From: Xylophilus sp. GW821-FHT01B05
GTDB taxonomy: Bacteria > Pseudomonadota > Gammaproteobacteria > Burkholderiales > Burkholderiaceae_C
Direction of reading: 5' to 3'
Length of the DNA: 64,000 nucleotides
Assembly (NCBI GenBank): GCA_038961845.1
Contig: CP152408.1
Coordinates: 2,666,001-2,730,000, forward strand
Below the pieces are notes generated by a model. It did not search any database, was not told where the DNA came from, and saw only the letters and a list, made by a program, of their open reading frames with translations. The position numbers were made by a program, and so were the translations under genes. Positions 45,971-64,000 of the stretch are shown piece after piece; position 1 is the first letter of the stretch; each line of letters begins with the position of its first letter.

Positions 45971-47104
45971 TTAGACGGGCACCGCCTGCACGCTGCCTTG
46001 CCACCGTTGTGCGAGAACGCGACCTCGTTTGCGCAACGGCTTTTCAATGAGTTGATAAGACATTTCGGCAGCGAAAAAGACCAATATTATCGTTCCAAAT
46101 ATCTGGTAGTCCATTATTTTCTGAGGCGCCCAACGGGTCCCCAGAAGCGAGTCCACGCTGAGAATCAAAAAAGCGACCGGAATATGGCACAAGTAGATGG
46201 CATACGAGCGCGTACCCAGATAGCCAAAAACCTTCCCCGCCAAGGAACGGAATTCAAAAGCCCTGAGTTGCAGTACTGAAATTGCAACGATCAAGCAACA
46301 ACAAATATCCAATACCCCTACCATGCACCATACGCCCCGCATGTGAACAGGTATCGCCATGACCGCAAGAAGCAGCAGGACTTGACCAGCGAATAGGGTT
46401 TTCGAATTATTAGCCAGTCTTTTCCTCAAATTCAAGTAGTGGCTTGTGAGCGTCCATAGATAGATAAAGCACCCCAGTATCAGCGCATCATATCTCACCA
46501 TGAATATTATTTTTGACTGATCGACAGGGCGAGGAAGCAAAAGCTGGAAAACTGCTGCCGCCAGCAAAACAGCGAGCACCCTTTTTTTCGACAAGAAGAT
46601 CAGCAGCATTGGGAAAATAATATAAAACTGCTCTTCTATCGACAGCGACCAATAAATTGACAGCTGCGGAGTCACGTCGAAAGTTAGATATATATTCTCC
46701 ACAGAGAAAGCGGATGCAAAAAAATGCCATACGACTTTTGAGAAGTCTCCAAATTTCCCAATCCCCTGAAAATACCAACTAAAGAAAAGAACGACGGCCG
46801 CCCAGAAAAAAGCCTGCGGAAATATTCTGAAAAATCTTTTTACAAAAAATATCTTTAGCCCATTGGCATTGGCGCTCCATCCATCGCCAATGCGCAACAA
46901 GGCATGCAGCTGCTTGGAGATGACAAAACCGGATATGACGAAAAACAGATCCACTCCGCCCCAAAATTGGGCAATATTCTGAATGGCATAAGCATACCAA
47001 TCATTTTTTTCATGAGTGAAAAAGCCCAGATGCGCCACTAACGTCATGACAATGGCCACGGCCCTCAGGTTGTCAACTTCTTTAATATGGTGATTCGAGC
47101 TCAT
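45971..47104 (-). CDS. Acyltransferase family membrane protein (OafA/YrhL-like)
   Basis: A 377-residue integral membrane acyltransferase-3 protein with about ten segments. The hallmark N-terminus NLRAVAIVMTLVAHLGFF contains the conserved RA...H, followed by FWGGVDLFFVISGFVISKQL and IYWSLSIEEQFYIIFPMLLI. These enzymes O-acylate surface sugars. The GC content is clearly lower than that of the chromosome before 42 kb, a sign of transfer. Last gene of the leftward polysaccharide operon, 10 bases after the GT4 gene. Confidence 0.9.
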   Translation of the reverse strand: MSSNHHIKEVDNLRAVAIVMTLVAHLGFFTHEKNDWYAYAIQNIAQFWGGVDLFFVISGFVISKQLHALLRIGDGWSANANGLKIFFVKRFFRIFPQAFFWAAVVLFFSWYFQGIGKFGDFSKVVWHFFASAFSVENIYLTFDVTPQLSIYWSLSIEEQFYIIFPMLLIFLSKKRVLAVLLAAAVFQLLLPRPVDQSKIIFMVRYDALILGCFIYLWTLTSHYLNLRKRLANNSKTLFAGQVLLLLAVMAIPVHMRGVWCMVGVLDICCCLIVAISVLQLRAFEFRSLAGKVFGYLGTRSYAIYLCHIPVAFLILSVDSLLGTRWAPQKIMDYQIFGTIILVFFAAEMSYQLIEKPLRKRGRVLAQRWQGSVQAVPV

Positions 47105-47114
47105 TAATTACCAA

Positions 47115-48194
47115 CTATCTCAAATGCTTTTTCATTGATTGAATGAACTGCTTTTCACTGAACAATACCGCTCGCCGCCGGCACAGTTCCGAGAGCTTGG
47201 GCCCCGCAGAAATTTCCATTTCTTCCACCGCATCGATCAGCGCCTCGATGCTGGGCGGCGGATTCAATAGCAAGCCAGTCTCTGCCGGGACGACGGTTTC
47301 CAACAACCCCCCTTCGGCCACACCGATCACGGGTTTGCCTGCAGCCATGGCCTCCACGGGCGACATGCCAAAGTCCTCGTCCACCGGCAGGTAGATCACG
47401 CAACGGGCGTTGCCCACCCAGCGCCGCAGCGCCTCATCGGCCTGCCAGCCGGTGAACCGAATGTTGGGCGCCTCTCTGGCGATCGCTTTCAATCGCTCCA
47501 GCTCCGGCCCGCCAGAGAGCACGACCAAGGAGCGTTCGGGCATCTGAAGGAAAGCCCGCACGATCACATCCACCCGCTTGTTGGGCACCAGTCGTGCGGT
47601 AGAGAGGTAGTAGCCCTCATCAGCCAAAAACCGAAAGTGCTGTGTGGACACCGGGGGGTAGACCACCTCGGCATCCAACCCTGTATACCGCTGGAGCCGT
47701 GCGCGAACGTTCTCCGAGTTCACGAAAATGCGATCCATTCGACCGATGGCCGCTTCGTACTGCTTGCGGAACCACCGCACGAAGATTGCGTAGAACGGCC
47801 GGAGCCACAACGGAAAACCCGCCAGAGTGCTGTCGTACAGGTCGTAGGCGAATCGGGGAATGGTGTGGCAATAGTAAAAGCGCCGGCCAGACCGTTGCTG
47901 GTAGACCGCCAGCGGGGCATAGAAGCCGCTGTAGAGCACAGTGTGGGCATCGTGCAACCGTCCTGCCCGAAACCGGAAGCACCACATGCTTTCCAGAATG
48001 CGCGGCAGGCGAGCAGACCAGCCCCCCCGCAACTCCTGCACTTGGGCGGTGGAGGCCGCCAGCAAGGGTTGGGCGTCCGGGTAGCACCGGCTGACCAAGG
48101 TCTGAAAGTCCGGAAAGGCCTCGGCCAGAGTGAGCGTGACACGCTCCGCGCCTCCGGCTACCTGCATGAAGTCGTAGAGAAGGTAGTTTTTCAT
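47115..48194 (-). CDS. GT4-family glycosyltransferase
   Basis: A 359-residue GT-B enzyme. MQVAGGAERVTLTLAEAFPD near the N-terminus is typical of GT4, STARLVPNKRVDVIVRAFLQ and VVLSGGPELERLKAIAR begin the donor domain, and DEDFGMSPVEAMAAGKPVIG carries the EX7E motif. Resembles mannosyltransferases of the WbaZ type, which would match the GDP-mannose supply, but the sugar is not certain. Overlaps the upstream glycosyltransferase start/stop by 4 bases. A truncated paralogue lies at 44582. Confidence 0.9.
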   Translation of the reverse strand: MKNYLLYDFMQVAGGAERVTLTLAEAFPDFQTLVSRCYPDAQPLLAASTAQVQELRGGWSARLPRILESMWCFRFRAGRLHDAHTVLYSGFYAPLAVYQQRSGRRFYYCHTIPRFAYDLYDSTLAGFPLWLRPFYAIFVRWFRKQYEAAIGRMDRIFVNSENVRARLQRYTGLDAEVVYPPVSTQHFRFLADEGYYLSTARLVPNKRVDVIVRAFLQMPERSLVVLSGGPELERLKAIAREAPNIRFTGWQADEALRRWVGNARCVIYLPVDEDFGMSPVEAMAAGKPVIGVAEGGLLETVVPAETGLLLNPPPSIEALIDAVEEMEISAGPKLSELCRRRAVLFSEKQFIQSMKKHLR

Positions 48195-62556: not shown

Positions 62557-63372
62557 TCAGAGCCAGTACACAAGCCTGCGACGGCTCTGCAAAAACACGG
62601 TAAAAAATGCCAACAGCAATGCGAGAAAAGTGGCACCGGCCATCAGATAGCTGTAGGGATTGACAGGCTCGCCCAAGACAGGAGCTCTCACCAAATCGAG
62701 AAATGCCGCCAAAGGATTGACGTGCACAATCAATTGGGCCCGCTCACTGAGCTGCGATGCCTGCCACATGACCGGCGTGAGAAACATCGCAATCTGCATT
62801 AAGCTGGTGACAATCATGGGTATGTCGCGAAAACGCGCGCACAAAGCACCCAGAATGCAGGACACGAGTACCGCACATACCACTGTAAATGCGAGTCCAA
62901 ACAAAAATGGGATTGGCCTCACATCATCCAGGCGCCCAAAAGTCAGAAGAACGATCAAGGCAATCGGGATGTTGTGACCCATCATCAACAGATTGCGCCA
63001 GATGACCCGTAAACCGAAAGCGGTCTTGGGATAGGGGGTTTGCTTCAAGAACGCACTGGAACCGATAAACGTCTGGCAACTGTCGGAAATGCACTGCGAG
63101 ATAAACAGAAACAGCACATGGCTGACGCAAAAGAACGGCAGGTACGTCTGGATATCTATCTTGAAAACCTGCGATCCGATCAAACCGAACGCGCCGATGA
63201 AAATGGCCGTGTTGATCGATATCCACACGGGTCCCAGAAACGAGCGGCGGTACTGCTTGAGGATGTCTTCCAATCCCAGATGCAGCCAGAAGCGCCAAAG
63301 CCTGAGCGCGCCCCGTACATCCCCCACCAGCAATTCGAACTGGGAAAGCGGCTTTAGACCAGGAGCTTGCAT
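62557..63372 (-). CDS. Polysaccharide ABC exporter permease (KpsM/Wzm-type)
   Basis: A 271-residue ABC-2-type membrane protein (start ATG 63372): FLHL-like amphipathic lead DILKQYRRSFLGPVWISINT, then six segments such as FIGAFGLIGSQVFKI, YLPFFCVSHVLFLFISQCIS, IVLLTFGRLDDVRPIPFLFG and FTVVCAVLVSCILGALCARF. Typical LGPLW-type motif of O-antigen and capsule exporters. Pairs with the ATPase encoded 2 bases downstream. Confidence 0.92.
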   Translation of the reverse strand: MQAPGLKPLSQFELLVGDVRGALRLWRFWLHLGLEDILKQYRRSFLGPVWISINTAIFIGAFGLIGSQVFKIDIQTYLPFFCVSHVLFLFISQCISDSCQTFIGSSAFLKQTPYPKTAFGLRVIWRNLLMMGHNIPIALIVLLTFGRLDDVRPIPFLFGLAFTVVCAVLVSCILGALCARFRDIPMIVTSLMQIAMFLTPVMWQASQLSERAQLIVHVNPLAAFLDLVRAPVLGEPVNPYSYLMAGATFLALLLAFFTVFLQSRRRLVYWL

Positions 63373-63376
63373 GCTC

Positions 63377-64000
63377 TCAATACTCCTTCTTGCGCACGAA
63401 AGGATGAACGCGCTCATCCGTATCGCTTGCAATCGAAGCGCTGCGAATCACATCCACCGTGTCGATGCAGTGCCTCGCATCCGCCAAGCCATACCCCCGG
63501 CCCGCCAGGATTTCGCGGTAGCTGGTGGTGTGCAGATCGGTGAAGCCTTCGGAAAACTCGAGTTGCTCACCGCTGACATCGATGTTCCGGTATGTGGGCT
63601 TCTTGCCTTTGACTTCGTCCGGAAGATCGTTGGCATCGATGGACAGAAACCATCGCACCCGGGCGCGTTCGTATTCCAGATAGCCGGCGGCCTTGGTTTC
63701 CTCGCTCAGGTGGATGCGATTGTCCTGAAGCTTTCCGAAAATGAAGTGCAGCATGTCGAAGAAATGCACGCCGATATTGGTGGCTACGCCAAACGATTTG
63801 CGCGGGTCGCCCTTCCAGCTCTCCAAGTACCACTTGCCACGCGATGTGATGTAGGTCAGTTCGACATCGAACTTGGTGTCCTTCGGGGCCGCGGCCACTT
63901 TGTCGCGCAGCTTCAAGATCGCGTCGTGGTGGCGCAGTTGCAGGATGTTGAACACTCGCCGACCCGTTTCCTGCTCGATGCGCGCCAGTTCATCCATCAA
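63377..64000 (-). CDS. Gfo/Idh/MocA oxidoreductase, WbpB/WlbA-like (N-terminus outside window)
   Basis: The C-terminal 207 residues of a nucleotide-sugar dehydrogenase. [37 protein letters not shown] and [20 protein letters not shown] match the catalytic domain of WbpB/WlbA, which oxidises C3 of UDP-GlcNAcA (NAD-dependent) before transamination by WbpE. The GVHFFD histidine is preserved. The N-terminal Rossmann domain lies beyond base 64000. Four bases separate its stop from the permease start, so it heads or precedes the visible operon. Confidence 0.9.

Follow-up and report, generated by a model that had tools for sequence, protein, structure and literature searches.

For Porphyromonas gingivalis, deletion together with mass spectrometry has shown that the AsnB-type protein WbpS (PGN_1234) forms the uronamide of a sugar from the Wbp pathway (PMC7468200). 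Here, in the Wbp/Vim system, WbpA, WbpB, WbpE and WbpD and an AsnB-type gene near wbpE lead to a 2,3-di-N-acylated glucuronamide. This resembles the locus described in this work, which occupies positions 45971 to 64000 of a 64,000-nucleotide stretch of Xylophilus sp. GW821-FHT01B05 (the window; contig CP152408.1, positions 2,666,001 to 2,730,000) and combines wbp homologues with two AsnB-type amidotransferases, AsnB1 and AsnB2. P. gingivalis has one AsnB of the WbpS lineage, and the amidated sugar is the linking sugar of a protein-anchoring lipopolysaccharide. In contrast, both AsnB proteins of the window fall outside the WbpS-lineage model and are accompanied by an ATP-binding cassette (ABC) exporter and by a short-chain dehydrogenase/reductase (SDR) as partner.

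WbpS of Pseudomonas aeruginosa O6 and WbqG of Escherichia coli O121 are likewise AsnB-type enzymes, amidating N-acetyl-galacturonic acid in the O-antigen (PMC7468200, PMC6025236). They act on a mono-N-acetylated uronate; the AsnB proteins of the window are set apart from WbpS by their scores with TIGR03108, the family in which it is placed. The Bordetella b-Cool locus (BB0880) also unites a uridine diphosphate N-acetylglucosamine (UDP-GlcNAc) 6-dehydrogenase, a 4-epimerase, an AsnB and glycosyltransferases (GTs) (PMC12407052); wbpB, wbpD and wbpE are absent from the locus as described. The b-Cool-type AsnB shares 33-34% identity with AsnB1 and 31% with AsnB2, where the loci L107 and L090 were taken as b-Cool-type (L107 by gene order) and not by identity to BB0880. 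E. coli WbqG was sought by DNA similarity with AsnB1 and the b-Cool-type gene, and no match was obtained.

The polysaccharide cluster psc1 of Rubrivivax gelatinosus, also a member of the Burkholderiales, is known to hold several asparagine synthases; three are labelled wbpS and have counterparts in Thauera and Rhodoferax (PMC3684757), and wbpBED is not seen in its description. Furthermore, the Bordetella wbm locus (WbmF/G/H) provides a di-N-acetylated uronic acid O-antigen using SDR enzymes (PMC2279256) and an ABC exporter (PMC3849452). Its proposed pathway starts from a manno precursor via the 2-epimerase WlbD and uses three SDRs to reach an L-galacto product (PMC2279256), whereas the window genome has no WlbD match. 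Predicted asparagine synthase genes are mentioned for a wbm locus of B. bronchiseptica (PMC12243275). WbmE was considered as an AsnB-type enzyme and set aside, since wbmE, going by a reference title in PMC3849452, encodes a periplasmic post-assembly enzyme. A described di-N-acetyl uronic acid locus with two AsnB proteins did not appear among the open-access papers listed by searches aimed at it; subscription papers were not searched. As far as found, what is new here is the cassette of AsnB1 with its partner SDR1 and the position of both AsnB proteins outside the WbpS model.

The locus is likely to be a surface-polysaccharide island, in which WbpA, WbpB, WbpE and WbpD would supply SDR1 and AsnB1 to give an amidated di-N-acetyl uronate, and in which AsnB2 would act on a second uronate acceptor. 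The product is very probably a surface glycan with its sugar acids masked as amides. AsnB1 is best read as amidating a 2,3-diacetamido uronic acid, a role that its gene neighborhood supports well. The genes carrying this reading are:

57105..58994, minus strand: AsnB1, glutamine-dependent AsnB-type amidotransferase linked to the di-N-acetyl uronic acid genes (PF00733, 306.5 bits; context statistics)
59005..60018, minus strand: SDR1, nucleoside diphosphate (NDP)-sugar 4-epimerase-like SDR, partner of AsnB1 (PF01370, 173.6 bits; best PDB match 6dnt, 174 bits)
60071..61225, minus strand: WbpE, 3-aminotransferase (PDB WbpE 3nyu, 567 bits)
61200..61877, minus strand: WbpD, 3-N-acetyltransferase (PDB 3mqg, 292 bits)
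63377..64000, continuing to G000:C1:2730327, minus strand: WbpB, dehydrogenase acting at position 3 of UDP-N-acetylglucosaminuronic acid (UDP-GlcNAcA), cut by the window end (PDB WbpB 3oa2, 565 bits)

AsnB1 is taken to start at the GTG at 58994, since the start listed farther upstream, at 59057, would leave the catalytic cysteine buried. The whole wbpB gene encodes 316 amino acids (L004 5378-6328; L numbers denote the compared loci, G numbers genomes). WbpA, just outside the window, scores 543 bits with the TviB model, below its cut-off of 592, and lies above that of TIGR03026. A complete WbpA-B-E-D set is thus encoded, which supports the synthesis of a di-N-acetyl uronic acid proposed in the first-pass annotation, and homology points to a 2,3-diacetamido uronic acid as the sugar made. 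A genome-wide search for a UDP-HexNAc 2-epimerase (PF02350) gave no match, hence no WbpI of the manno branch. Therefore, a WbpI-type manno product is unlikely and the D-gluco form, or the D-galacto form after SDR1, is predicted. An Achromobacter locus whose gene order is of the b-Cool type encodes an epimerase with 34% identity to SDR1, and the b-Cool epimerase of B. bronchiseptica is described as producing UDP-N-acetylgalactosaminuronic acid (PMC12407052).

The main evidence for AsnB1 is its context in relatives. The best 80 of 492 relatives from a scan of genome contigs (61-96% identity) come from proteobacteria, cyanobacteria, Nitrospirota, Verrucomicrobia, Chloroflexi and others. An SDR1 homologue (at least 50% identity) lies within 4 kb upstream of AsnB1 in 63 of the 68 loci with at least 3 kb of upstream sequence, and WbpD (at least 49%) occurs in 43 of the 56 with at least 8 kb. 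By comparison, 18 other Burkholderiales AsnB loci, hand-picked down a score-ranked list and with shorter stretches in five cases, contained SDR1 (at least 50%) in none, WbpD in none and WbpE (at least 42%) in one. This conserved context, together with the absence of SDR1 and WbpD from the controls, suggests that AsnB1 acts in the di-N-acetyl uronic acid pathway, and for this enzyme the amidation claimed earlier is supported. The SDR1-AsnB1 cassette is widespread.

WbpB was found by tblastn (at least 50%) in only 13 of the 80 loci. The gap was followed up at 12 loci, L005 and 11 from the set of 80, and open reading frames (ORFs) from nine of them (eight of the 80 and L005; L043, L049 and L086 were left out) were analyzed. 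Each of the nine ORFs, taken from directly in front of WbpD where tblastn had given no WbpB, encodes a Gfo/Idh oxidoreductase; one of these matches PDB 3q2i/3q2k (592/584 bits), the entries of WlbA.

In 19 of the 51 AsnB1 relatives with full flanks, AsnB1 is separated by no more than about 10 kb from a second AsnB. This, the three asparagine synthases of Rubrivivax psc1 (PMC3684757) and the Wbp plus AsnB uronamide route of Porphyromonas (PMC7468200) speak against the earlier suggestion that the combination may be new, as far as its kind is concerned; the chemistry is of a known kind, and the enzyme branches and their combination are new. Since a previously seen second AsnB was the reason for including many of the 20 genomes examined for multiple AsnB genes, no rate was drawn from them. 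In Bordetella hinzii (L084/L091/L092) and B. pseudohinzii (L093/L094), a single locus holds three AsnB genes, each of a different kind; in B. hinzii, SDR1-AsnB1, a third AsnB and AsnB2 stand together. The O-chain of B. hinzii is rich in amidated di-N-acetyl uronic acids; its structure was not found in the papers and listings consulted and was not used as evidence.

Both AsnB proteins score above the Pfam cut-offs for GATase_6/7 and Asn_synthase and are intact in the glutaminase residues Cys1, Arg49, Asn74, Glu76 and Asp98 as well as in the SGGxDS motif. An alignment of 133 frames, of which 6 were dropped for length and identical copies were merged so that 118 were aligned, revealed that DVTTIRAST of E. 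coli AsnB is replaced by EEPRVGQS in the AsnB1 clade (clade 1) and by GEPFGSTS in the AsnB2 clade (clade 2); the b-Cool-type enzyme has DEPFADSS. Aligned residues 323-325 of the replaced segment are 98-100% conserved in the 85 clade 1 and 12 clade 2 sequences. Threonine and arginine of DVTTIRAST act in aspartate activation, and the replacement therefore counts against aspartate as substrate, while it does not identify the substrate used.

This bears on the explanation that one or both AsnB proteins merely make asparagine, which is very improbable. In its favor, AsnB1 and AsnB2 are the only full-length AsnB matches of the genome, and both pass the cut-off of the 'asparagine synthase' model TIGR01536. 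With PRK09431 (asparagine synthetase B), in contrast, they reach 281 and 230 bits against a cut-off of 499, E. coli AsnB reaching 1050. Furthermore, the genome encodes GatB, no asparaginyl-tRNA synthetase above the cut-off (best 92 bits versus 343) and no AsnA, and 140 of 300 genomes of the order, including the congener G171, lack an AsnB match at 1e-40. The AsnB proteins thus seem dispensable for asparagine, and the operon context and the changed segment also speak against this role.

Amino-acid amides occur in some O-antigens, and an AsnB could accordingly join an amino acid or another amine, instead of ammonia, to the uronate. The amidotransferase MoeH5 is credited with several variants at unit B of moenomycin, among them those with carboxamide, glycine and serine (PMC8778134). 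However, the class II glutaminase domain is intact in both AsnB proteins and points to ammonia channelling, which makes this alternative improbable.

The second amidotransferase lies among glycosyltransferases and a second SDR:

47115..48194, minus strand: GTa, GT4-type glycosyltransferase (PF00534, 89.7 bits)
48191..49372, minus strand: GTb, glycosyltransferase (PF13692, 27.7 bits, cut-off 27)
49338..50582, minus strand: GTc, probable glycosyltransferase (PF13439, 26.7 bits, under the cut-off of 28.5)
50500..52386, minus strand: AsnB2, glutamine-dependent AsnB-type amidotransferase of a second subfamily (PF00733, 235.8 bits; GATase_6/7; catalytic residues)
52389..53465, minus strand: GTd, GT-B fold glycosyltransferase (no Pfam match; AlphaFold pLDDT 84.5; top Foldseek matches GT4-type enzymes)
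53462..54325, minus strand: SDR2, UDP-hexuronate 4-epimerase-like SDR (family profile, predicted fold, active-site residues)
54322..55506, minus strand: GTe, probable GT4 and homologue of GTd (PF00534, 20.4 bits, under the cut-off)
55592..57112, minus strand: GTf, probable glycosyltransferase (PF00534, 22.2 bits, under the cut-off)

The real start of GTc is probably downstream of the listed TTG, and a GTd query picks up the GTe counterparts of relatives at 27-30% identity. The six glycosyltransferases counted in the first-pass annotation are all there, with uneven certainty: two exceed a Pfam cut-off, three are sub-threshold and one, GTd, is recognized by fold only.

For SDR2, a family profile placed MoeE5 and the Bacillus cereus UDP-glucuronic acid (UDP-GlcA) 4-epimerase best with 136 bits each, followed by another enzyme with 99 (75 matches). 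In the Foldseek search of its predicted model, UDP-hexuronate 4-epimerases (MoeE5/BcUGAepi) were likewise on top, at 22-24% identity. S102 and Y126 are invariant, and K130 nearly so, across 12 sequences. Since profile and model are closest to these enzymes, a plain hexuronate is favored as SDR2 product. UDP-GlcA could come from a second UDP-sugar dehydrogenase, whose gene lies at 4730347. MoeF5, a possible parallel to AsnB2, did not turn up in the literature searched.

In loci found through AsnB1, AsnB2 stands behind GTe-SDR2-GTd seven times (L008, L097, L099, L100, L102, L103 and L104), and SDR2-GTe-GTd occurs with a reversed AsnB2 in L092 and L096. Because such a sample is biased, AsnB2 was also searched independently: 14 of 399 genomes of the family matched, and 13 loci other than its own were compared, five with shortened flanks (L128 is the X. 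ampelinus locus again). Here, another AsnB occurs in seven loci and WbpD in three, and GTc (L128, L129, L132, L133, L137) or GTb-GTa (L130, L131) adjoins AsnB2 in seven. In an order-wide sample, AsnB2 was matched at 1e-130 in only 2 of 399 genomes, the window genome and G062. L097 further holds two AsnB2-like genes, at 7894 and 10983 on the minus strand (55% and 56%), flanking a GTc homologue about 9.5 kb from its AsnB1.

Several points weigh against the reading of the locus as an island with SDR1 and AsnB1 on a di-N-acetyl uronate and AsnB2 on a second acceptor. The specificities of SDR1 and SDR2 are guesses from distant relatives, and we know of no characterized member of either AsnB clade. 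With TIGR03108, AsnB1 reaches 429 and AsnB2 341, below the cut-off of 817, and both score higher in TIGR01536; the b-Cool-type AsnB, at 521, is also below this cut-off, yet prefers TIGR03108, the family to which WbpS is assigned in PMC7468200. In L049, there is no room for WbpB between WbpA and WbpD, and 13 of 56 AsnB1 loci have neither WbpD nor a close WbpE by the thresholds (WbpD of L064 is just below 49%), so that the idea of AsnB1 always being accompanied by wbpBED was dropped. An extra DegT aminotransferase, which the window lacks, lies just upstream of AsnB1 in 47 of the 80 relatives (e.g. L030, L044, L050). Due to these loci, the substrate of AsnB1 may vary. The SDR1-AsnB1 pairing is not exclusive, since the stretch of L129 in view contains an SDR1 homologue (55%) but no protein of the AsnB1 clade. 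Finally, SDR2 is found in only two of the 13 independent AsnB2 loci, plus one partial match. SDR2 as a fixed partner, strong in the AsnB1-found loci, is weakened by this sample, and AsnB2 therefore appears as a polysaccharide-locus enzyme without a fixed partner.

This leaves room for two further explanations of AsnB2. The GC content differs by block, with 44-49% for SDR1-AsnB1-GTf-GTe, 56-57% for SDR2-GTd and 61-64% for AsnB2-GTc-GTb-GTa, which suggests assembly from blocks. The AsnB2-GTc-GTb-GTa block might be an older cassette for a conserved linker or cap, with the AsnB1 block making the variable repeat unit. Its GC content is nearer to the genome average. In L129-L131, AsnB2 and GTb-GTa (GTc in L129) lie near a GT4-GT2 fusion and a tetratricopeptide repeat (TPR) protein, with neither wbpB/D/E nor an AsnB1-clade protein in view; each of these loci carries instead an AsnB at 33-34% identity to AsnB1. 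However, several other AsnB2 loci lack GTa and GTb, and L129 has its SDR1 homologue; the proposal appears rather unlikely. A little less probable still is that both AsnB proteins act on the same di-N-acetyl uronic acid at different linkages or stages, giving one kind of amidated residue. A single di-N-acetyl uronic acid pathway is encoded, and AsnB2 lies beside wbp genes, with AsnB1 not in view, in three of the 13 loci (L135, L138, L139). On the contrary, the two proteins are only 31% identical and differ in clade-fixed residues of the synthetase domain, and their blocks differ in GC content.

The first-pass annotation had proposed two distinct amidated residues. This is plausible in so far as the AsnB proteins represent different subfamilies in differently composed sub-blocks. 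However, residues cannot be counted from the enzymes, as the b-Cool glycan has two GalNAcAN residues and its locus one putative asparagine synthase (PMC12407052). Only tentatively can it be proposed that one glycan receives two amidation routes, one serving a 2,3-diacetamido uronic acid (SDR1-AsnB1) and the other a plain hexuronic acid (SDR2-AsnB2), that AsnB1 and AsnB2 found two non-WbpS subfamilies, and that SDR1(-DegT)-AsnB1 is a widespread module from proteobacteria to cyanobacteria, Nitrospirota and Verrucomicrobia.

For the preferred reading, WbpA would oxidize UDP-GlcNAc to UDP-GlcNAcA, which WbpB, WbpE and WbpD, given their close homology and complete set, would convert to the 2,3-diacetamido sugar UDP-GlcNAc3NAcA. 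This is probably not turned into the manno form, as the genome has no 2-epimerase match, and SDR1 probably epimerizes C4 to yield the galacto form. From the conserved pairing, AsnB1 would then amidate the C6 carboxylate with glutamine and ATP, yielding a carboxamide. In the weakest step, AsnB2 would amidate a second uronate. The simplest candidate is a hexuronic acid that SDR2 would make from UDP-GlcA; the alternative is the sugar used by AsnB1, in a different linkage. GT4-type enzymes would build the chain, Wzm/Wzt would export it and the acyltransferase would decorate it, and a largely uncharged, uronamide-rich glycan would result.

The remaining features of the region are:

43074..44549, plus strand: mannose-1-phosphate guanylyltransferase/mannose-6-phosphate isomerase, in the island and outside the operon (TIGR01479, 633 bits, above cut-off)
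45971..47104, minus strand: membrane acyltransferase, Acyl_transf_3 (PF01757, 79.8 bits; GC 45.9%)
61805..62554, minus strand: Wzt, ABC exporter ATPase of 249 amino acids (ABC_tran; NF050108, 275 bits, under the cut-off of 400)
62557..63432, minus strand: Wzm, ABC exporter permease (PF01061, 47.3 bits, above cut-off; NF050109, 202 bits, under the cut-off of 380)
L004 7697-9589, minus strand: GT4-GT2 fusion, beyond the window, near glnD
L004 9576-11567, minus strand: TPR membrane protein, beyond the window, near glnD

With Wzm and Wzt, both components of ABC-transporter-dependent polysaccharide export are present. In Wzt, ABC_tran is the sole family above cut-off, and the carbohydrate-binding C-terminal domain of one sub-type was not seen. 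All locus genes from 45971 to 64000 point leftward in a single gene train with neighbor spacings of -83 to +85 bp. Pfam and NCBIfam identify two full AsnB-type proteins, two extended SDRs, Wzm/Wzt, a hexapeptide acetyltransferase, a DegT aminotransferase and Acyl_transf_3; together with the PDB matches, every gene of the leftward operon named earlier (WbpB, WbpE, WbpD, two asnB, two SDRs, acyltransferase, ABC exporter) is confirmed. The host genome is a single contig of 5.83 Mb, in which the window corresponds to G000:C1:2666001-2730000, and the train extends about 5.6 kb beyond the window end, through the rest of WbpB, WbpA, the GT4-GT2 fusion and the TPR protein, followed by glnD and map, both assigned by inspection of the sequence and not by a tool. 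The TPR protein and the GT4-GT2 fusion are kept at 53-56% in L129-L131 beside AsnB2-GT cassettes without wbpB/D/E in view. At the 3' edge of the operon, short overlapping ORFs (44835-45780, minus strand) resemble by eye insertion-sequence transposase pieces. A 102-residue C-terminal GT4 fragment (44582-44890, minus strand; PF00534, 55.7 bits) looks by eye like the GTa C-terminus, with no match by DNA blastn, and a 120-residue small membrane ORF in the island (42514-42876, plus strand) is by eye of a kind common in polysaccharide clusters.

The island lies between doxX and glnD, and the GC content of 45971-64000 is 54.1%, against 67.5% for window positions 1-44000. It was not found at the glnD-anchored site in four congeners (G557, G708, G768, G171). 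In the first three, the doxX or ABC-permease genes, which flank the island in the window genome, start less than 250 bp from the anchor end; in G171, doxX lies about 4 kb from glnD, with an SDR gene in between. The locus has 19 genes, of which the stretches compared from Xylophilus ampelinus CECT 7646 (L008) show 17, in conserved order and strand and at 67-96% identity, the GT4-GT2 gene being partial and the upstream TPR gene outside the stretches compared; no relative of the acyltransferase was seen in about 6 kb beyond GTa (L101, L128). AsnB2 is present in two of the six genomes of the genus, including the window genome. The island is strain-variable within the genus and may therefore alter surface charge as well as phage and host recognition.

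If the proposed reading is true, SDR1 next to AsnB1 together with wbpBED would be a sequence signature from which carboxamide-masked di-N-acetyl uronic acids could be predicted across many genomes. Furthermore, the locus would provide a defined enzyme pair for asking whether separate, substrate-dedicated amidotransferases mask the charge of surface glycans.

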